From the NCBI GenBank assembly GCA_002733185.1, contig NVUT01000020.1, positions 26,671 through 60,468 of the forward strand: a stretch of DNA of 33,798 nt, given 5' to 3'. The notes beneath the pieces are model-generated. The model saw only the letters and a list, made by a program, of their open reading frames with translations, made no database searches and had not been told where the DNA came from. This document shows, piece by piece, positions 1,402 through 31,271 of this stretch. The DNA is from Flavobacterium sp. (GTDB lineage: Bacteria > Bacteroidota > Bacteroidia > Flavobacteriales > Flavobacteriaceae). The position numbers and the translations under genes were made by a program. Position 1 is the stretch's first letter. Every line of letters begins with the position of its first letter.

Positions 1402-1531
1402 TGCTAACAATGTATATAAATCATTGGGCAATAAGTGATTAAATCAAAGTTAGTGCTTTTAAATAAAGATAGTGATAAACCGAAAAAAAGTGCTTTTAAA
1501 CGCCCAACGCTTCATATACGAGACGTTACCT
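1402..1531 (+). repeat. attC-like site 2
   Basis: TGCTAACAATGTATATAAATCATTGGGC...GCCCAACGCTTCATATACGAGACGTTACC; AAC 1406, GTT 1525. Confidence 0.85.
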
Positions 1532-1705
1532 GCAAGCGAAAAACCAGCCGCACAGTCAAGCACATTTCATTTTGCTCGTGCCTCACAAAATAAAAAGAGC
1601 TTGCCTTTTCCAACGCTCACCCAGAACAAAAATCAGATTTAAAATAGAAAATACAAAATTTGTCCGTAGTTTTGTCCGTGTACGCAAAAACGTCCGTAAA
1701 CTAAT

Positions 1706-3913
1706 ATGGCAACAATAAACTTTTACCTAGACAAACCTGACAAAAAAGGATTTACACCAATTCATTTAAGAATAAACTGTAATGGAAGTCAAATAAAACT
1801 TTCTACAGGACAGAAAATACAACCAAAACAGTTTGACAAAAAAAAACAACGAGCAACAGGATTAGCTATAGAGTCTCACGAAGTAAATCACTACTTAAAC
1901 TTTTTGACAGAAAGAGCAGACGAACTTTTACATCATTCTAATAAAAAAATATTTGTTCAAGATGAAGTTAAAGCCATTTTGAATGAACATATTAATAACT
2001 ACAAAGAGAACAACAATGTAAATATTGTTAAAGAACAAGTTTCACTATATGGAAAACCGTTCACTTTTGTTGATTTATTTGCTGGAGCAGGTGGTTTTAG
2101 CGAAGGATTTCTACAAGCAGAATCAAATAATAAATTTTTCGATTTTATAGTAGCAAATGATATAAACGAAAATTGTGAATTGACACACGTAGTTCGTTAC
2201 AATCATCAACTTGGATTAAATGCAGCGTTTTTAAAACAAGATATAACTGAACCTGATTTTCTCGATAATTTGTTATCAAAAATTGATGGTAGAAAAATTG
2301 ATGTTGTTTGTGGTGGTCCACCTTGTCAAAGTTTTAGTCTTGCAGGAAAAAGGAAAAAATTTGACAAAAAAGATGATTTATTTTCTCACTATTTAGAAGT
2401 AATTAAGGTTTTACAACCGAAATATTTCGTAATGGAAAACGTGAAAGGAATTTTAACCAAAGAAGGAGGGAAAATAAAAGAGTTAATCATTAAAGAAATT
2501 AATTCTATTGTTGACATTAAAGAAATCCCATTGCTAAACTCGTTCATCAAAAAAATACGAAAAGAATCAAATTCATTTCTTTTTGATAGTATTATCAAAA
2601 GAGTAGAGCTTGAAAAACTACTCGAAAAAGACAAGGAGTCTGGAAGAGAAGACTTTATCAGATTTGTAGAAAATCGATTCAAAAAATTAACCCCAAAAAT
2701 TGCAGACTACAAAACAAGTAAAACAGACGAAAATATTAGTACCATTCGTCACGGTTTTAATCTTTTAGCACGCTCTAAAGAATGGGACAAACTAAAGCGT
2801 GATATTATTAAAGAAAAGGACTTTTGTAATATTGATAGTGATGATTTTGCTAGCGCATTTACTAACTTTCTAACAGAAATAGGTTCTGAAAACATTATTT
2901 CAAAAATTGAAAACGCTTTCAAAACTTTAAAAATCCCAACTAATTACAAAAAAGATTGTGAAGACATTATAACCGCTCTAAAAATTTACACTACGTCTTT
3001 TGATGAATCAATTGAAATATTAAAAACACATTGTAACATATCACAAAAAAAGGAATTAGACACGATTCTAGAAAGTATTAGACTGTACAAAATAGAAAAG
3101 CCATTTGTTGCCAACGCATCAAATTATGGTGTTCCTCAAAATAGAGAAAGAGTACTTTTCATAGGTTGTCGCAAAGACCAAAAGTATATTTCTGAAATTC
3201 CACCAACAGTTTCCGAAGAAGAAAAAGTAACCATTTTTGAAGCACTTTATGATTTAGATTTTGTTGGTAATAATCAAGAAGCTCATCATTATGAATTGGT
3301 TGATATTTCAACACAATATAATGGAACAGCAAAAAAAATGACAAAGCTTCTTAAGAAAAGGAATATTGATGGAAAACCAAATACTAAATCTGGAAAATCC
3401 TTTGCGGAATGGTCAAAGAAAGGAAGATTAATTGAGCGTTTCAAACCACAAACGAAACCTTTCTATGTAAAAAATTCAGCAGGACTTGAAAGTGGAGAAA
3501 AGTATTTTGACTCTCTAAACAATCATAAAACAAGCAAACAAAATGAAACAGTAATCAAACGTCTTGGTGTTATTTTAAAAAAAGGCAATTATAAAAAAGC
3601 ACAACCCGAATTAGTAAAATTAGGTCTTTCAACAAATAAACGAAACTATAATGTTTTAAAACCAGATGAGCAAAGTTCTACAATAATGACTATTGCAGAT
3701 GATTACATCCATTACAACTCACCTAGAGCATTAACAGTAAGAGAAATGGCACGTTTGCAATCATTTGATGACTCTTTTGTTTTTCAAGGAAAACGTTCAA
3801 CTGGAGGTAATAACAGAAAAACTGAAGTGCCACAATATACACTAGTAGGAAATGCTATACCACCTTTGTTGGCAAGAGCAGTAGCAAGTGAAATTTTAAA
3901 AAATATTAAGTAA
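1706..3913 (+). CDS. C5 DNA methyltransferase with N-terminal Arm-type (tyrosine recombinase) DNA-binding domain
   Basis: N-term MATINFYLDKPDKKGFTPIHLRINCNGSQIKLSTGQKIQPKQFD resembles Bacteroidetes integrase Arm DNA-binding domains; then VDLFAGAGGFSEGF, GGPPCQSFSLAG, MENVKGIL, NRERVLFIG, VGNAIPPLLARAVA. Confidence 0.88.
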   Translation: MATINFYLDKPDKKGFTPIHLRINCNGSQIKLSTGQKIQPKQFDKKKQRATGLAIESHEVNHYLNFLTERADELLHHSNKKIFVQDEVKAILNEHINNYKENNNVNIVKEQVSLYGKPFTFVDLFAGAGGFSEGFLQAESNNKFFDFIVANDINENCELTHVVRYNHQLGLNAAFLKQDITEPDFLDNLLSKIDGRKIDVVCGGPPCQSFSLAGKRKKFDKKDDLFSHYLEVIKVLQPKYFVMENVKGILTKEGGKIKELIIKEINSIVDIKEIPLLNSFIKKIRKESNSFLFDSIIKRVELEKLLEKDKESGREDFIRFVENRFKKLTPKIADYKTSKTDENISTIRHGFNLLARSKEWDKLKRDIIKEKDFCNIDSDDFASAFTNFLTEIGSENIISKIENAFKTLKIPTNYKKDCEDIITALKIYTTSFDESIEILKTHCNISQKKELDTILESIRLYKIEKPFVANASNYGVPQNRERVLFIGCRKDQKYISEIPPTVSEEEKVTIFEALYDLDFVGNNQEAHHYELVDISTQYNGTAKKMTKLLKKRNIDGKPNTKSGKSFAEWSKKGRLIERFKPQTKPFYVKNSAGLESGEKYFDSLNNHKTSKQNETVIKRLGVILKKGNYKKAQPELVKLGLSTNKRNYNVLKPDEQSSTIMTIADDYIHYNSPRALTVREMARLQSFDDSFVFQGKRSTGGNNRKTEVPQYTLVGNAIPPLLARAVASEILKNIK

Positions 3914-3915
3914 AT

Positions 3916-4539
3916 ATGGCAACTGTTTCAGATTTCTTAAATGAATGTATCAATGAAAATGCTGGTATGGTTGTCCAAAAATATTTGATTAATGGCTCTA
4001 GTTATTTTTTTGAAAAAGTTATGGTAGAGAAAGACGAAGAGTTCTTTTTCAAAAAAGAGTTGGCAGAAAGTTTAAACGTTCATATTCAAGATATTGTTAT
4101 CATTGGGTCAGGTAAATTAGGATTCAGTATAAAACCTGATAAATATAATTTGCAATTCTATCAATTTAAAAATTTTGATTTCGATTTCAACGAAAATAAC
4201 GAGTCAAAAAAATCTGACTTAGATATTGCAATTATTTCTGGTAGATTATTTGATAAACAACTAAAAGATATTTATGACCATACTCAGTTTTATACAAGTG
4301 ATGAGTTTAGTGGAACTAAAAAGAAATCGTTTGCAAATTACATACTCAAAGGTTGGCTAAGGCCAGATATGATGCCAGATGATTACAACATAACGGAAGA
4401 AATAATCGAAGTGAGCAATAAATACAAGAAAAAATATAATAGAGATGTTAATATTGGAGTGTATAAATCTTGGGCATATTTTGAACAGTATCATATGAAT
4501 AACATCAAAAGAATTAAATTAAACCAACTAGCAATATAA
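3916..4539 (+). CDS. Uncharacterised protein, nucleotidyltransferase-fold-like
   Basis: GSGKLGFSIKP...KSDLDIAIIS resembles the GS...(S)DxD arrangement of nucleotidyltransferases; embedded in the RM operon. Confidence 0.45.
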   Translation: MATVSDFLNECINENAGMVVQKYLINGSSYFFEKVMVEKDEEFFFKKELAESLNVHIQDIVIIGSGKLGFSIKPDKYNLQFYQFKNFDFDFNENNESKKSDLDIAIISGRLFDKQLKDIYDHTQFYTSDEFSGTKKKSFANYILKGWLRPDMMPDDYNITEEIIEVSNKYKKKYNRDVNIGVYKSWAYFEQYHMNNIKRIKLNQLAI

Positions 4540-4541
4540 TT

Positions 4542-5630
4542 ATGAAACTCAAACAAAGTATACCTTCTACTAGTGTGAAAATAATTGAATTATATAATAA
4601 AATTGATTCTGAAGTATTAGATACTAGTCCTGATTTTCAAAGAAAATTGGTATGGAAAAAGCAACATAAATTTCATTTCATTGAAACTATATTAATGAAT
4701 TTTCCTTTTCCTGAAGTTTATATTGCAAGTTCAGAAATGGATATTGAAGCCCTTACTACCAAGGAGGTAGTTGTTGATGGAAAGCAAAGGTTGACGACTA
4801 TAGTTGAATATATTAAAGGAATAAACGATTTTGATGGACAGACTAGATTAACTTCTTTTGATGATTTAGATACTGATGAAAAAAAAGAATTTCTTAATTA
4901 TTTAGTTACTGTTAGAGATTTGAAGGATCTGAATTCAGATTTAATAAAAGAAATTTTCCAACGAATTAATAATACTGAATATTCGTTGAATACAGTAGAA
5001 AAAACTAATGCTCAATATGGAGATGGCGAGTTTGTCGTTTTTTGCAAACAACTTGTAGACGAAACCTACACAGCTTTAATCGATAATACTGATATTGTTT
5101 TTGATGAGGAGTTAAAGCAGGTTGTCAACACATTCTTTTCAAGTAAAAACATTTTTACTGAAAACGATAAAACAAGAATGTATGATATACAATATGCTAT
5201 GCTTATTGTATCCACATTAATTGAGGCTGAATACTTTGGTAGAAACACAAAGGTAAATTCACATTTGAAAGAATACAATAGCTCTTTTACCATTAGTGAC
5301 GATATATTGACTAGACTGATTGAAATATTTAATAAAATTGATGAACTTGATTTAAATGCTAATTCATACTGGTTTTATAAACCAAATTTATTTTCATTAA
5401 TTAATGAATTGTCAAAAGTTGATTTGAACTCAATTAATATTATGGGACTTAAACAAACATTAGAAACTGTTGAAACAAAAAGTAAGAATTATTTTGCTGG
5501 TGTTGAGCTAGAAGTAATTACTGACCCAGAAAAAAAATATTTCGAATGGGCAAGAGAAGGTATAAATGAAAAAGCAGCTAGACTTCATAGAGCTCAAGTA
5601 TTAAGCAATTTAATTGGTGAAAATATCTAA
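4542..5630 (+). CDS. DUF262 (GmrSD-N/ParB-like fold) protein
   Basis: SPDFQRKLVWKKQHKFHFIETILMNFPFPEVYI...VVDGKQRLTTIVEYI. Confidence 0.8.
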   Translation: MKLKQSIPSTSVKIIELYNKIDSEVLDTSPDFQRKLVWKKQHKFHFIETILMNFPFPEVYIASSEMDIEALTTKEVVVDGKQRLTTIVEYIKGINDFDGQTRLTSFDDLDTDEKKEFLNYLVTVRDLKDLNSDLIKEIFQRINNTEYSLNTVEKTNAQYGDGEFVVFCKQLVDETYTALIDNTDIVFDEELKQVVNTFFSSKNIFTENDKTRMYDIQYAMLIVSTLIEAEYFGRNTKVNSHLKEYNSSFTISDDILTRLIEIFNKIDELDLNANSYWFYKPNLFSLINELSKVDLNSINIMGLKQTLETVETKSKNYFAGVELEVITDPEKKYFEWAREGINEKAARLHRAQVLSNLIGENI

Positions 5631-6808
5631 TGCGAAAACTTACAATCGAAGAACAAAACAAGATTAAACTGCTAACGAAAAACCAAGTTTCTCTTACTTT
5701 AATTGAACCAACTGAAACGGGACTTAAAAAATCCATAATGGATGCAACAGGTTCGGTTAGAAGTTTTTTGAAAAGTGAAAACATTCACGATTACGACCAA
5801 CAATTACAAGGTCCAAATCATAAAATTATAATTCCAACCACTATCCATACTGGATTTGAAACGATTAAATCTCAAGCATCTTTGTATCGTCCAATTACCA
5901 AAAGTGGAGACCCAAGAATTTGGTTTTACAAAATGACAAAAATTGCAGAAGCAAACGACATTATTGTAATTGCATATTTTGATGATAGTTTTCAAATTTT
6001 TAATCTTACCCAATTAGACATTGAAGCCTTGATAAATTCTTCAATTCAAAATCCATTACAAGATTTAATCAAAGAGATTAATAATACAGAAAGTGAAGTA
6101 GCATTTGAACTATTAGGAATGTTAAGAAAAATAGCGAGTACTGGACCAATACCATCAATGGTTGATGCAGACACTTCTGTTGGACGAACATTAGAAACTG
6201 CACTTGGAATTGATATAAATTCTTCTAAAAAACCAGATTACAAAGGAATTGAGTTAAAATCATTTAGAAAAAGTCGAACTAATAGAAAAAATTTATTTGC
6301 TCAAGTTCCAGATTGGAGTTTAAGCAAGTTTAAAAGTTCCGCAGAAATTCTGAATAATTTTGGATACAAACGTGAAGAGGATTTTAAATTGTATTGCACA
6401 GTTTCTGCAATTACAAGAAATTCACAAGGTCTGAATCTTAAAATTGATAATGATATAAAACAGTTGATTGAAAATTCAGATAAGCCAGAGATTGGAGATT
6501 TTGTTGTCTGGACTTTGGACAAACTTCACAATCGATTAAGAGAAAAGCACAAAGAAACATTTTGGGTTGAAGCCGAAAGTACTAGAATAAATGACCGAGA
6601 GCATTTTCAATATAAATTAGTTGAGCACACGAAAAAACCAATAACTTCTCAATTCGATTTACTAATTGACCAAGGAATTATTACACTCGACCATTTGATA
6701 AAACGAAACTCGAAAGGTAAGGTTGTGGAAAAAGGACCGTTATTTAAAATTAAACCGAAAGGAATTGAACTTTTGTTTCCGCCAAGTGAAAGATATAGTT
6801 TAATCTAA
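5630..6808 (+). CDS. MvaI/BcnI-family-like type II restriction endonuclease
   Basis: TSVGRTLETALGIDINSSKKPDYKGIELKSFRKSRTNRKNLFAQVPDW; ATG overlaps the stop of the upstream ORF. Confidence 0.75.
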   Translation: MRKLTIEEQNKIKLLTKNQVSLTLIEPTETGLKKSIMDATGSVRSFLKSENIHDYDQQLQGPNHKIIIPTTIHTGFETIKSQASLYRPITKSGDPRIWFYKMTKIAEANDIIVIAYFDDSFQIFNLTQLDIEALINSSIQNPLQDLIKEINNTESEVAFELLGMLRKIASTGPIPSMVDADTSVGRTLETALGIDINSSKKPDYKGIELKSFRKSRTNRKNLFAQVPDWSLSKFKSSAEILNNFGYKREEDFKLYCTVSAITRNSQGLNLKIDNDIKQLIENSDKPEIGDFVVWTLDKLHNRLREKHKETFWVEAESTRINDREHFQYKLVEHTKKPITSQFDLLIDQGIITLDHLIKRNSKGKVVEKGPLFKIKPKGIELLFPPSERYSLI

Positions 6809-6931
6809 TCGGAATTGCCTACGCAAGGTTCAAGCACATTTATTTTTTTGCCAACGCTTAGAGCCAACGCTATAAAAAATAAAAGAGCTTAAACCGCCAA
6901 CGCTAGCAAGTTTGCGGAAAGAAACGCCAGC

Positions 6932-7063
6932 CAGGTAACAATGTATATAAAAAATAGCGGTTTAAGTGCTAAAACGAAAATGAATTTTATAAATTTAAGG
7001 TCAGTATTAATCTGAAAAATTAGTGCATAAAATCCGCTACTTTTCATATACTAAACGTTGGCG
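6932..7063 (+). repeat. attC-like site 3
   Basis: CAGGTAACAATGTATATAAAAAATAGCGG...CCGCTACTTTTCATATACTAAACGTTGGCG; AAC 6937, GTT 7057. Confidence 0.87.
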
Positions 7064-14457: not shown

Positions 14458-16297
14458 ATGGAAGAAAAGATATTAGAAACAATAGTAACAGGATTTATTT
14501 CCGAACTTGTAAAAGAAAGCAAATCAATATTCAATGATTTGTCTGATGAAGGAAGCCAGTTATTGAAAACAGGTCTAAAAAGATATCTATCTAAGCAAAA
14601 AGATAAATATTCACATCTTAAAACTCTTTTAAAAGGAAACACTCCTGTCTTTTTATATGATATTTATTACCCATTAAAACTTGAAAAAAGTGATGAAATA
14701 ATAAAGACAGATGTTATTTCTAATGTTTTTGAAAAGACAAATTATGTTACAATAATTGGTGATGCCGGAAGTGGAAAAAGTACACTTGTAAAGCATTTAT
14801 TTTTGAATTCAATTTATACCAAATATGCAATCCCAATTTTAATAGAATTAAGGTATCTTAACGATTATGAAAACGATTTAGAATCATATATAATTGACAA
14901 AGTTCTTGAAAATAAAATAGCCGAAAATCCAAAGATATTAGAACGATTATTAGAAAAAGGTAAGTTTGTATTTTTTCTTGATGGTTATGATGAATTAAAC
15001 TCTGAGGTAAAATCTAAAATAATTGAAAACCTTAATTCATTTATTAATCAGTATTCCGAAAATAAATTCATTCTAACAACTCGTCCTTTTTCAGATATTG
15101 AACATTTACAAATATTCCACAATTATAATGTTAAAAAACTGTCCCTTGAAGACGGAGAGATTGAGGGATTCATTCATAAACAACTTGAAAAAGAAAATCA
15201 ACTTGCTAAAAAAATATATGAATCAATCAATTCTAACAAAAGTGAATATATTCAAAGTTTTTTAACAAACCCTCTTCTGCTTTCTCTTTATATTTTAACC
15301 TTTCAAAGTAATGCCTCCGTTCCTGCAAAAAAATACATTTTCTATAGACGTGTTATTCAGGCATTATTTTCAGAACACGATAGCAAAACAAAACTTGGCT
15401 TTGTTAGAGAAAAACTAAGTGGTTTAAAACAAGAAGAATTTGAAGACATTTTAAAAATATTTTGTTTCATATCTTATTTTGAAAGCAGATTTAATTGGGA
15501 TATGGACTATATTCTTGATAAATTTAACAAAATTAAAAAAACAAAAAGAACTCACCTTTAGTAACAATAAAGTTGTAAAAGATTTGAAATCTGCTGTTGC
15601 ATTATGGTTAGAAGATAATGGCGAATATTCTTTCGCACATAGATCATTACAGGAATATTTTGCCGCTTTATTTGTCAAAAACCTAAACCCAAATGAAAAC
15701 AAAAGAATTTATGATAAAATAATTGACAGATTTTCGAAAATCAGACGTTTAAATGAAGTTAAAAATTTCCTTTCTTTATTAGAAGAAATGGATACTTTAA
15801 ATTTCAAACGACACTACTATCTACCATTATTATTAGAATTAAGAAAACAAATTGATGATAGCAATGATGAAAATTTATTCAATACATTTATTAAATTCTT
15901 TGCACAAGGTGTAATATTACATTCACATAAAGGAGGAGAACGGTACTATCCTGATGTTCGAATCAATGAAGATACAGTCTACAAAGCAATATATATTCAT
16001 CTTCCATTTACCATTAAACTAAATGACATCTTACGTGATGTTATTAGAGATGATTCTAATAAAGTAACTGATGGTAATGATGAGTTAAAATTAGATAAAG
16101 GTAGAGGGAAAAACAGAGTTGTACCTTACATAAATTTTGACAAAGATTTACCTTTTGAGTTTAAAGACATATGTTTTAATAAAGTTATTTCATTAGGAAC
16201 AGAATTTAGTTTACACATAAATAAAGAAATAAAAGATACTGAAAAATTTATTGAAAAGTCAATTGAAATAGATAAAGATTTTGTTGATTTAATATAA
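14458..16297 (+). pseudogene. NACHT NTPase, interrupted by a frameshift at about 15535-15541
   Basis: IIGDAGSGKSTLVKHLF (Walker A), GKFVFFLDGYDELN (Walker B), FILTTRPF in frame 1; continuation with YSFAHRSLQEYFAALF in frame 2 (15479..16297 ORF). Confidence 0.85.
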
Positions 16298-27026: not shown

Positions 27027-27158
27027 TGTTACAACAACGTATAAACTCCATAAGGATTACTTTGGTTAATTGGAAAATTCTGTTTTATAGAAACTTTTTT
27101 CAAAACTGAAAATTCCGTAAAACAAATCCCTTACGGAAGCTTATACAAACCGTTACCT
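27027..27158 (+). repeat. attC-like site 19
   Basis: GTTACAACAACGTATAAACTCCATAAGG...CCCTTACGGAAGCTTATACAAACCGTTACC; AAC 27033, GTT 27152. Confidence 0.85.
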
Positions 27159-27340
27159 GCAAGCTGAAAAGCCAGCCGCACAAACAGCACATTTATTTTT
27201 TGCCGAACACACCAACCAACGCTGAAAAATAAAAGAGCTGTTTCTTTCCACCGCAAAAAAAACGAACAACTTGATATAAAATTCGCAAATTATAATTACA
27301 TTTGCTAAAATTAGGTCAACTTGACTTTAAAACAAAAAAA

Positions 27341-27673
27341 ATGGTAGGTTTCGGACAATTCATAAAAAACGAACGAGAAAAACGAGAATGGACACAGACT
27401 GAATTTGGAAATCAAATAGGTATAAATACTAGTGCAATTTGCCGAATTGAAAATGGAACACAAAAATTCAGCATATCAAAACTTGAAAAACTTTCTCAAA
27501 TATTAAAAGTTGACAATCAAAAAATCAATGATTTATTTTTTGCGGACAAATTTGCAAAAGAAGCTTTTAAATATAAATGTTCAGAATCAGTTTTTTCAGT
27601 TGCTGAAGACAATGCCACTTATTTGAGAAATATCAACACAAAACAAGGAATATTAAATTTTGAAAATGAATAG
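27341..27673 (+). CDS. XRE regulator, possible RM controller (C-protein-like)
   Basis: FGQFIKNEREKREWTQTEFGNQIGINTSAICRIENGTQKFSISKLEKLSQIL directly upstream of and overlapping the methyltransferase gene. Confidence 0.75.
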   Translation: MVGFGQFIKNEREKREWTQTEFGNQIGINTSAICRIENGTQKFSISKLEKLSQILKVDNQKINDLFFADKFAKEAFKYKCSESVFSVAEDNATYLRNINTKQGILNFENE

Positions 27674-28736
27674 AAAATTAACCGCAATCGACTTATTCTC
27701 TGGATGCGGAGGATTCTCTTATGGATTCCAACAAGCTGGATTCCACGTAATTTTAGGTGTTGATAATACAGAAGTAGCCTTAAAAACATTTGAGAAAAAT
27801 CATAATGATTCTAAAACACTTCTTTTAGACTTGCACGAAGATAATTCAATAGATAAAATTGTAGAATCAAAAGGAAAGCATAAAGTAGATGTTATAATCG
27901 CTGGACCACCTTGTCAAGGTTTCTCTTTGACTGGAGCAAGAAATGAAAATGACGAAAGAAACACACTTTTTAATGCTGTATTCAAACTTGCTAAAAAGGT
28001 AAATCCAAAAGCAATAATAATCGAAAATGTTCCAGGATTACTTAATTTGTATAAAGGAAAAGCAAAAAAAGAAATAATCGAACTTTGCGAAGAGATGGGA
28101 TATAATTGTAATCCTAAACTATTATACGCACCAGATTACGGAGTTCCGCAGATTAGAAAACGAGTATTTTTTGTTGCAATAAAAAAAGAATTAGGAGTAT
28201 TTGAATTTCCAGAAAAAACTCATAAGCCCGAAGAATATATTGGTTGTAAAGATGCTATTGGAGACTTACCAAATTTAGTCAGCGATTTAGGAAATGAAGA
28301 ATTACTTTATGACAAAAAAGCTTCTAGCGAATATCAAAAAACAATGAGAAATGGTAACAAGGTTATAAAAAACCATCTTGGAACACAACATACTGAACAC
28401 GTTATAAATGTTATTTCACAAGTTCCAGAAGGTGGAAATCATAAAGATTTACCACCAGGAGTTGGAGATTCTAGAAAATTCAATGAAGCTTGGACTAGAT
28501 ACCATAGTAAAAGACCTTCCAAAACAATAGATACTGGTCATAGAAATCACTTCCACTACAAATGGAACAGAGTTCCTAGTGTAAGAGAAAATGCGAGATT
28601 GCAATCATTTCCTGACGAGTTTATCTTTTTGGGTAATAAAACCCAACAATACAGACAAGTTGGAAATGCTGTACCACCATTGCTAGGAAAAGTTCTTGGC
28701 ACTCACCTGATAAACTATTTGAAAGATGAAGATTAA
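27666..28736 (+). CDS. DNA (cytosine-5) methyltransferase 1
   Basis: IDLFSGCGGFSYGF, AGPPCQGFSLTG, IENVPGLL, QIRKRVFFV, RENARLQSFPDEF, VGNAVPPLLGKVLG. Confidence 0.93.
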   Translation: MNRKLTAIDLFSGCGGFSYGFQQAGFHVILGVDNTEVALKTFEKNHNDSKTLLLDLHEDNSIDKIVESKGKHKVDVIIAGPPCQGFSLTGARNENDERNTLFNAVFKLAKKVNPKAIIIENVPGLLNLYKGKAKKEIIELCEEMGYNCNPKLLYAPDYGVPQIRKRVFFVAIKKELGVFEFPEKTHKPEEYIGCKDAIGDLPNLVSDLGNEELLYDKKASSEYQKTMRNGNKVIKNHLGTQHTEHVINVISQVPEGGNHKDLPPGVGDSRKFNEAWTRYHSKRPSKTIDTGHRNHFHYKWNRVPSVRENARLQSFPDEFIFLGNKTQQYRQVGNAVPPLLGKVLGTHLINYLKDED

Positions 28737-29985
28737 TGTAATTGACTTATTCGCAGGTTGTGGTGGATTAACGGACGGATTCCTTCAAACAGGAAAGTAC
28801 AATACTTTAGCAGCTGTTGATTGGGAATTCCCAACGGTTCAAACTCTTAAAAAGAGATTGAGTACAAAATGGAATTATGATTTAGACCGCAATAACATAA
28901 TACATTTCGACATTCAAAGAACAGAGGAGTTAATTAATGGCTTTGAAGATTCAAAATTTGGGAAAAGTGAAGGTCTTGATAAAATCGTAGGAGATAAAAA
29001 TGTAGACTTAATTGTTGGAGGTCCACCTTGTCAAGCATATTCAATTGCAGGAAGGGTTCGGGATGAAAATGGTATGCAAGATGATTATCGTAACTATTTA
29101 TTTGAGAGTTATGTAAAAATGGTTAATCATTTTCAACCAAAAGCATTTGTTTTTGAAAATGTAGAAGGTATTCTTTCAGCAAAACCAGGTGGAATATCAA
29201 TTGTAAAAAGAGTAAGAAAAGCTTTTGAAAAAATCGGTTATGAAACAACTGAAAACTTAAGGGAAAATGCGTTGTTCGACACATCATATTATAATGTTCC
29301 GCAAAAAAGAAAAAGAGTTATAATTTTTGGCGTACAAAAAAATAAAGATAGCACAGAACAAGTTCGCAAGTTTTACTCGCTTATGAAGCAAAAAGCAAGT
29401 GTAGAACCTATGAATTCTAAAATAGCTTTTGAAAACTTACCGAAAATTTATCCATCAAAATTAAACCCTAAACACTCACATTCAGTAAAACTAAATGGTG
29501 TCGCTTTACCAAAAAACCACGAACCAAGAATGCACAGTGAGAGAGATATTGAAATTTTTAAAATGCTAACAGAAGATATTTTAAGTGGAACTGAAAAATA
29601 TATTTCAAGTAAAGCTCTAATTCAATTATATAAAGAAAAAACTGGTAAAGATTCTAAATTTCATAAATATCACGTAATAAGAGAAGATAAACCAAGTAAT
29701 ACAATTCCTGCTCATTTATACAAAGATGGTTTAAGACATATTCATCCAGACCCAAACCAAGCTCGTACAATTACAGTTCGAGAAGCTGCTAGAATACAAA
29801 CTTTTGATGATGAATTTGAATTTTTAGGTTCTAGAGGAGACCAATATAAAATGATTGGAAATGCTGTTCCTCCTCATTTTTCTAAAGTAATTGCAGAAAC
29901 AGTCTCTGATATTTTAAATAATTCACATATTCCTTTCACTCTTAAAACAGGACTTTTTAGTCGTGAATTAGTAAACCAGATTTAA
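28726..29985 (+). CDS. DNA (cytosine-5) methyltransferase 2
   Basis: IDLFAGCGGLTDGF, GGPPCQAYSIAG, FENVEGIL, QKRKRVIIFG, REAARIQTFDDEF, IGNAVPPHFSKVIA. Confidence 0.93.
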   Translation: MKINVIDLFAGCGGLTDGFLQTGKYNTLAAVDWEFPTVQTLKKRLSTKWNYDLDRNNIIHFDIQRTEELINGFEDSKFGKSEGLDKIVGDKNVDLIVGGPPCQAYSIAGRVRDENGMQDDYRNYLFESYVKMVNHFQPKAFVFENVEGILSAKPGGISIVKRVRKAFEKIGYETTENLRENALFDTSYYNVPQKRKRVIIFGVQKNKDSTEQVRKFYSLMKQKASVEPMNSKIAFENLPKIYPSKLNPKHSHSVKLNGVALPKNHEPRMHSERDIEIFKMLTEDILSGTEKYISSKALIQLYKEKTGKDSKFHKYHVIREDKPSNTIPAHLYKDGLRHIHPDPNQARTITVREAARIQTFDDEFEFLGSRGDQYKMIGNAVPPHFSKVIAETVSDILNNSHIPFTLKTGLFSRELVNQI

Positions 29986-29989
29986 ACCT

Positions 29990-30955
29990 ATGTTATACAC
30001 TCAAAATTTAGAAGAATTAATATTTAATAGACACGAAATTTTAGATACTGATGAACTAATTGTTTTATCTGGATATTTAGGCCCCAGACCAGTTGCAAGA
30101 TTGGAAGAATTACCTTTCAATTCTCGTGTAATTTATGGAATGTATGGTTCAGAAGGCATTCAAACAAGACTGCATAACTCACTAACTCGTATTCAAAATG
30201 AAGTTGAGAACCTAAATATTTTTTATTCTCAACTACCTGTTCATTCCAAATGTTATGTCTGGCGAAAACAAGGCCAAATAATTCACGCTCTTTTAGGTTC
30301 TGCAAATTTTTCGATTAATGGACTTACAACACCTTATCGGGAGATATTGGCGGAAACAACTAGAGACACTTTTAATCCGTTAAATGATTATTTGGGTCAC
30401 GTATTAAATAATTCAATTTCTTGTCTTGAGATAGGAGGACGTGGAATTCAAGAAGGCGTTGAGCCTGATGAAGCCAGTATTATGACACTTTTAATGGCCA
30501 ATGGACAAACACATAATGCCAGTGGATTAAATTGGGGCTATATGGCTAATGGACTTCCTTCTTTAAGACGAGGTATAGATGATGCTTGTATTCCAATAAG
30601 TATTGAACATATCAGACACTATCCTGAATTATTTCCACAAAAATTAACGGAAAGAGAACTTGTAGACGTAAGAGGTAGAAGACAAAGGTCAAATGAAGCT
30701 ATTGAATTAATTTGGGATGATGGAATTACAATGGAGGGTTTACTTGAAGGAACAAATAATGTGGATGGAATAGCTTATCCCAAACAAATAAGTTCATTTC
30801 CTGCAAAAAATGAAATGGGAGAATATTTAAGGCAAAGGCTGGGTGTGCCTTTAGGACAACCTGTTCAAAGACATCATCTAGATAGATATGGCAGAACTGA
30901 TATTACAGTTTCATTATTAGGAAACGGAATTTATAGTTGTGATTTTTCTGTTTGA
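29990..30955 (+). CDS. NgoFVII-family (PLD-superfamily) restriction endonuclease
   Basis: HSKCYVWRKQGQIIHALLGSANFSINGL (HxK...GSxNFS PLD-type motif), YREILAE; adjacent to two C5 methyltransferases. Confidence 0.8.
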   Translation: MLYTQNLEELIFNRHEILDTDELIVLSGYLGPRPVARLEELPFNSRVIYGMYGSEGIQTRLHNSLTRIQNEVENLNIFYSQLPVHSKCYVWRKQGQIIHALLGSANFSINGLTTPYREILAETTRDTFNPLNDYLGHVLNNSISCLEIGGRGIQEGVEPDEASIMTLLMANGQTHNASGLNWGYMANGLPSLRRGIDDACIPISIEHIRHYPELFPQKLTERELVDVRGRRQRSNEAIELIWDDGITMEGLLEGTNNVDGIAYPKQISSFPAKNEMGEYLRQRLGVPLGQPVQRHHLDRYGRTDITVSLLGNGIYSCDFSV

Positions 30956-31074
30956 CAAAATGCCAACGCTAAAAGCCATACACATTTACAATTCGCTACA
31001 GCCAACACACAAGCCCAAAATTGCAAAAGAGTATGTCTTTGCCAACGCTAGCTAGTTTGCGGAAGAAAGCCAGA

Positions 31075-31271
31075 CAGGTAACAACGTGTATAAAACATAG
31101 CTAGTAAGTGCTAAACCAAAGTTTTGTGTGTACTTAAAAGTTCCGCCAAATTTTTAATTTGGCTTTTAAAATAGAAAAGATAAAAACAAAATATAAAAAT
31201 TCGGCTCTGTGCTAAACCGAAAATGTAGTACCTTTTTACACGCTACGATTTCATACACAAGACCGTTACCT
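31075..31271 (+). repeat. attC-like site 20 (long class)
   Basis: CAGGTAACAACGTGTATAAAACATAGC...CGCTACGATTTCATACACAAGACCGTTACC; AAC 31080, GTT 31265. Confidence 0.83.

Follow-up and report, generated by a model that had tools for sequence, protein, structure and literature searches.

Within a 33,798-nucleotide stretch of the Flavobacterium sp. contig NVUT01000020.1 (hereafter, the window), a gene cassette at positions 1525-7056 carries four genes that encode, in this order, a C5 cytosine methyltransferase (M), a nucleotidyltransferase-fold protein (NTase), a DUF262 protein and an MvaI/BcnI-type restriction endonuclease (R). Here we argue that this cassette is probably a type II restriction-modification (RM) operon that has taken up, without being disrupted, an independent DUF262 module of two genes that resembles Dazbog. 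The independence of the module, the point of its insertion and the domain make-up of the proteins are established by sequence comparison. The preliminary description of this locus, made from the sequence alone, proposed a 5.5-kb cassette with matching ends (borne out, from 1525 to ~7056) and four tightly packed genes; indeed, the open reading frames are separated by gaps of 2 and 2 bases and then share a 1-base overlap (TAATG), and Pfam confirms the proposed C5 methyltransferase, DUF262 protein and MvaI/BcnI-like nuclease. The genes, their domains and the insert are as follows.

1706..3913, + strand: C5 cytosine methyltransferase (M), 735 amino acids (aa); Pfam PF00145, 6.6e-54, and catalytic motifs in the alignment
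1730..1924, + strand: Arm-DNA-bind_5 domain at the N-terminus of M (aa 9-73); PF17293, 2.2e-6
3914..5629, + strand: insert relative to the two-gene cassette, from the DNA alignment to L023/L024/L027/L030
3916..4539, + strand: nucleotidyltransferase-fold protein (NTase), 207 aa; GS-x-K-x-GFS and SD-x-D motifs, AlphaFold model, and a homologue with Pfam NTP_transf_2
4542..5630, + strand: DUF262 protein (GmrSD_N), 362 aa, without DUF1524 and without B3; PF03235, 1.1e-19, motifs, and PADLOC NsnA, 1.5e-27
5630..6808, + strand: restriction endonuclease (R), 392 aa; PF15515 MvaI_BcnI, 5.6e-79 (aa 163-383), and R.MvaI, 2.7e-8
5630..6109, + strand: B3-like DNA-binding domain of R (~aa 1-160), homologous to the C-terminal domain of DUF262-B3 fusions
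6233..6259, + strand: active site of R, PD-(4)-ExK (PDYKGIELK, aa 202-210), from the alignment to R.MvaI

The core of the cassette appears to be a two-gene type II RM system of the MvaI/BcnI class. M has the catalytic motifs PCQ, ENV, QxRxR and IX-X, and the PDYKGIELK site of R, with the short PD-(4)-ExK spacing known for BcnI (PMC4081073), is kept in all nucleases tested. We searched 300 genomes of the family for the nuclease and 388 genomes of the class for its N-terminal domain, which yielded 18 loci in which M is directly followed by the nuclease, with nothing in between (the nuclease reading frame is interrupted in two of these, L081 and L085). In particular, the M and the nuclease of the window are, respectively, 91% and 86% identical to the proteins of L023, which lacks the NTase-DUF262 pair. 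As in the type II systems with an MvaI/BcnI-family nuclease (R.MvaI, PDB 2oa9), a C5 methyltransferase stands beside a PD-(4)-ExK nuclease; unlike R.MvaI-type systems, however, the window has a B3-like domain in the nuclease and an Arm-DNA-binding domain in the methyltransferase, both missed by the preliminary description, as well as two genes between M and R. Nucleases of this kind are found with a C5 methyltransferase also on plasmids of Phaeobacter, Acinetobacter and Vibrio; on a Phaeobacter plasmid (L118 4995-9597), the B3-MvaI RM genes are followed by a ParA family gene, a hypothetical gene, a DUF262 gene (NsnA / PD-T4-2_A-like) and a HEPN gene.

The two middle genes lie in a stretch that the relatives of the cassette do not have: the DNA of L024 aligns to window positions 1406-3911 and 5620-6957, with no match in between. 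The very large size of the cassette, pointed out early on, is therefore explained by a 1.7-kb insert (~3914-5629). The same end sequences stand beside different neighbours in two-gene relatives (the start in L024, the end in L025 and L029), and thus all of these are one mobile RM cassette, whose copy in the window has been enlarged by the insert. In most two-gene loci, the stop codon of M overlaps the start codon of R (TGA/GTGA); in the window, the two genes are parted precisely at this overlap, where new stop and start codons are found. The same M|R junction holds a 2.2-kb insert in L030, which is Dazbog (L030 5796-8001; DzbA 3e-97, DzbB 2.2e-50). In the methyltransferase tree, the window and L030 are both nested within a clade of two-gene loci, which is most simply explained by two insertions that took place independently. 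The base composition of the insert versus the RM genes is uninformative. A conserved four-gene system was rejected, with 18 two-gene relatives against a single four-gene locus: the search for conservation of all four genes together found no second locus with M, NTase, DUF262 and R in the genomes or collections covered. The early suggestion of a composite system rather than plain type II RM is thus correct for this locus, where an independent pair sits inside an RM operon, but not as an established four-gene system. Loci with M and the nuclease but no middle genes, which according to the preliminary description would refute its proposal if they protected equally well, do exist. On a viral contig (L114 1141-4779), a C5 methyltransferase, an NgoMIV-type restriction enzyme, an NTase and a DUF262 protein are encoded in one apparent operon, so that a second kind of RM is joined to the NTase-DUF262 pair.

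Elsewhere, the NTase-DUF262 pair forms a separate module. Searches for the pair in genomes, viral contigs and plasmids, and at the family level, returned ~50 loci (a few are the same record twice). With ~4 exceptions, the NTase gene is immediately followed on its 3' side by DUF262, often with an overlap. The pairs occur in, among others, Bacteroidota, Pseudomonadota, Cyanobacteriota and Bacillota; several adjoin phage integrases, and a distant pair, recovered via the DUF262 query, resides on a 6.2-kb Cronobacter plasmid. With the window NTase as tblastn query, there were no matches in plasmids at 1e-5 and none in annotated phages at 0.01.

The assignment of the 207-aa protein to the nucleotidyltransferases, made already in the preliminary description, is upheld by the motifs of its homologues, GS-x-K-x-GFS and SD-x-D being invariant across 26 of them, but not by a Pfam hit of its own, of which there is none; a Clostridium homologue scores just over the Pfam NTP_transf_2 cut-off. 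Structure prediction gave a confident AlphaFold model (predicted local distance difference test, pLDDT, 92.3), for which the PDB offered no confident counterpart. In L040 (5889-7624), a protein distantly related to the NTase is encoded upstream of a CAP12/Pycsar-type TIR protein (PADLOC PDC-S35), which stands in place of DUF262. The DUF262 proteins of the pairs keep the QR, DGQQR and FxxxN motifs, as defined in PMC12137116, with the variant DGKQR in the window and likewise in L042; they match Menshen NsnA and PD-T4-2_A, and the predicted model of a DUF262 relative resembles BrxU and ParB. DUF1524 was found in none of the DUF262 proteins scanned, the window protein stopping after the helical part.

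Several known defence systems share individual components with the pair. Like Dazbog (DzbAB), which occupies the same operon junction in L030, the window pair is a two-gene module with a DUF262 protein; however, its partner gene encodes the NTase and not DzbB, and membership in Dazbog was rejected, given that the window proteins match neither DzbA nor DzbB. Menshen (NsnABC) and PD-T4-2 also employ DUF262 without DUF1524, and NsnA is the best PADLOC match of the window DUF262 (1.5e-27), but NsnB/NsnC and PD-T4-2_B are absent, the partner being the NTase, so that Menshen membership was rejected as well. With the type IV systems GmrSD/BrxU, proposed as relatives at the outset, the protein shares the DUF262 fold and motifs (QR, DGQQR, FxxxN), but the DUF1524 His-Me nuclease domain is missing by Pfam, and the gene adjoins those of a methyltransferase and a sequence-specific nuclease; a type IV assignment was discarded. 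The proposed likeness to MNT-HEPN pairs, where a small NTase gene with GS and DxD motifs is coupled 5' of its partner, extends to the nucleotidyltransferase signature only: the partner is DUF262 and not HEPN, and membership was rejected. CBASS (a CD-NTase cyclase with a Cap effector) was dismissed too, the window NTase having no PADLOC hit and only 1 of 26 homologues matching a cyclase model (2.3e-4).

The module has relatives that carry a DNA-reading domain of their own. In ten distinct loci (L036, L042, L043, L044, L046, L047, L048, L049, L054 and L106), the DUF262 protein is ~140 aa longer and carries an additional domain, a homologue of the first 150 aa of the nuclease; the predicted model of this domain matches the plant B3 domains LEC2/FUS3 in DNA complex with a probability of 0.87-0.96, at Foldseek E-values of only 0.2-0.7. 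A C5 methyltransferase directly precedes all ten of these DUF262-B3 fusions (NTase-DUF262-B3 units), whereas B3-less pairs stand directly after a C5 methyltransferase only in the window and in L113. None of the ten fusion loci has an intact nuclease domain; in L035/L046, directly after the DUF262-B3 stop codon, there is a fossil of an MvaI-type nuclease comprising ~the last 120 codons. The fusion loci do not group together in the methyltransferase tree but are interspersed with the two-gene loci (a single clade is rejected by the approximately unbiased test, p-AU 4e-5), and the well-supported branches require that nuclease and NTase-DUF262-B3 were interchanged four times or more, whereas the NTase-DUF262-B3 unit itself forms one clade (83/76). 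This combination indicates that a single methyltransferase family has had its neighbouring effector units swapped. A second, 530-aa methyltransferase class is likewise found with both effectors, and the two classes have TI.DD..HY as well as a TGG motif around motif IX in common, a hint that they may recognize the same target. In L047 (9124-11339), Dazbog adjoins the methyltransferase-NTase-DUF262-B3 operon.

The same trees place the window locus. Its pair groups with the B3-less pairs L041/L045 of Alteromonadales-type bacteria (support 95/92), and the B3 domain of its nuclease sits with the two-gene nucleases, apart from the clade of fusion B3 domains (100/97). Hence, by these phylogenies, the window locus is an RM system with an inserted B3-less pair and not a remnant of a fusion system, even if its gene order, DUF262 followed by a B3-nuclease, could be the one from which a DUF262-B3 fusion arises.

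With regard to the fusion loci, we tentatively envisage the C5 methyltransferase, the NTase and DUF262-B3 as a nuclease-free, restriction-like class in which B3 would find unmethylated sites, DUF262 would serve as a nucleoside triphosphate (NTP) switch, and the effector would act by nucleotidyl transfer rather than by cutting DNA; this class may have taken the place of the MvaI-type nuclease repeatedly, beside the same methyltransferase family. Functionally, the closest analogue of this form is the CglI/NgoAVII family, which consists of a C5 methyltransferase, a B3-bearing R protein and an NTP-hydrolysing N protein (PMC4267653). The window shares with these three-gene RM systems a C5 methyltransferase, B3 target recognition and an additional NTP-using operon protein but differs in having an MvaI-type nuclease instead of a phospholipase D (PLD) one and a DUF262 + NTase partner instead of a DEAD helicase; a member of this family would be expected to encode a PLD-B3 nuclease and a DEAD-family ATPase, and, with no helicase found by Pfam, the window was not assigned to it.

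For the window cassette itself, the division of labour can be envisaged as follows. The methyltransferase would mark the host's sites, and the nuclease would read the site via its B3 and nuclease domains and cut unmethylated DNA. The DUF262 protein, by the precedent of BrxU and SspE (PMC10952713), would sense invading DNA and act as an NTP-driven switch, its trigger most likely being an abnormal or protective DNA modification that escapes the nuclease. The NTase, as the effector, would halt growth by attaching a nucleotide to some target in the cell, so that phages able to get past the nuclease would meet the pair as a second line of defence. The logic of such pairing follows from a report on Dazbog, which can be activated by the phage methylases that assist in the escape from RM (PMC12409349). 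In the nuclease-free relatives, DUF262 possesses its own B3, which would wire the recognition of unmethylated sites directly to the NTase. Broken genes weakly fit a toxic role of the NTase rather than of DUF262: in L049 (5442-9074), the methyltransferase and the NTase are frameshifted and DUF262-B3 is intact, and in L069 and L115 the NTase is broken and DUF262 intact.

Several points weigh against this reading of the pair. The broken-gene loci are few, and sequencing errors are possible among them; modification sensing by DUF262 is carried over from BrxU, SspE and Dazbog. We infer the blocking of phages by the pair, which is probably antiviral, and also the chemistry of the NTase: an invariant third acidic residue is absent from the alignment of the 26 homologues, nothing confident among the solved structures matches by sequence or by fold, and no PADLOC model matches the window NTase.

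Alternatively, the pair could have landed in the RM operon by chance, with the two systems functionally unconnected, as might be surmised from there being only one four-gene locus and from the independence of the module elsewhere. We consider such mere hitchhiking rather unlikely because two different DUF262 pairs occupy the same junction, an RM system is joined to NTase-DUF262 also in L114 and a methyltransferase to the pair in L113, and the B3 fusion is always accompanied by a methyltransferase. A lower probability is assigned to a toxin-antitoxin-like stability module, in which the NTase would be the antitoxin nucleotidylating DUF262, as in MNT-HEPN, and would retain the cassette without being primarily antiphage. 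The tight two-gene arrangement with the NTase 5' and the occurrence of the pair on a small plasmid and on mobile elements agree with this possibility; however, an essential antitoxin is hard to reconcile with broken NTase genes beside intact DUF262 (L069, L115, L049), Dazbog, an antiphage system, takes the same operon position, and the repeated replacement of a restriction nuclease fits defence better. Finally, a single machine requiring all four genes, in which DUF262 (as NTP switch) and the NTase regulate the nuclease directly while its B3 domain reads the target, seems improbable even though the DUF262/B3-nuclease gene order mirrors the fusions, the TAATG overlap couples the genes and the CglI/NgoAVII B3 nuclease requires an NTP-hydrolysing partner (PMC4267653), because the 18 close relatives retain M and R without the pair (the nuclease being 86% identical to that of pair-less L023), R.MvaI-type enzymes work without NTP and the window pair groups with stand-alone, B3-less pairs.

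The RM cassette is itself part of an array that extends over the whole window (1-33798) and has ~17 attC-like sites with cassette-specific matched ends. The borders of the cassette are as follows.

1525..7056, + strand: whole cassette, from its own GTT start to the base preceding the GTT of the next cassette; matched ends GTTACCTG/CAGGTAAC and flanking half-sites
1406..1527, + strand: left border, the attC-like site of the preceding cassette; inverted arms 1412-1429/1502-1519
1525..1532, + strand: cassette start GTTACCTG
6932..7059, + strand: cassette end CAGGTAAC with attC-like site; inverted arms 6943-6963/7031-7051

The GTTACCTG sequence is present in the window in 6 copies, against 0.45 expected, a number reached in 0 of 100 shuffles. 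Cassette ends (xxxxxAAC) are the exact reverse complement of the start of their own cassette (GTTxxxxx) in 15 of 17 cases, and nearly all GTTxxxxx starts are preceded by one half-site type (TATAC/TACAC...GTT). This matching of ends and starts is attC-type cassette logic and conforms to what defines an integron cassette, namely, an attC-type site whose end matches the cassette start. An integron integrase was sought in the host genome (84% complete), with no TIGR02249 match over the cut-off; no Rfam family matched the window, including the attC-like sites; and a promoter scan did no better than shuffles, with no terminator-like site seen. The GTTACCTG/CAGGTAAC ends recur on another RM cassette (27152-31082), which encodes an HTH (helix-turn-helix) control-like protein, a tandem pair of C5 methyltransferases and a PLD nuclease of the NgoFVII type that has a B3-like domain at its C-terminus. 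The cassette at 172-1413 encodes a 258-aa C5 methyltransferase, with the C-terminal motifs seemingly missing, followed by an Apea-like HEPN protein, and at 14458-16297 two overlapping open reading frames of the array appear to be parts of one split NTPase-like protein, which matches PADLOC PDC-S60 weakly.

Taken together, these data mark the point between M and R in an RM operon as a site where DUF262 pairs can settle, as NTase-DUF262 did here and Dazbog did in L030. The nuclease-free relatives are the most novel part of these findings; a word search of the open-access literature, which is no proof of novelty, found nothing on the NTase-DUF262 pair or on a DUF262-B3 protein. If the proposed scheme is correct, what DUF262 proteins sense would become directly testable because the methyltransferase, the DNA-reading domain and the effector are genetically separable. 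Furthermore, a methylation-based test of self versus non-self could be coupled to an effector that is not a DNA-cutting enzyme, a swap that would have taken place in nature several times beside the same methyltransferase family.

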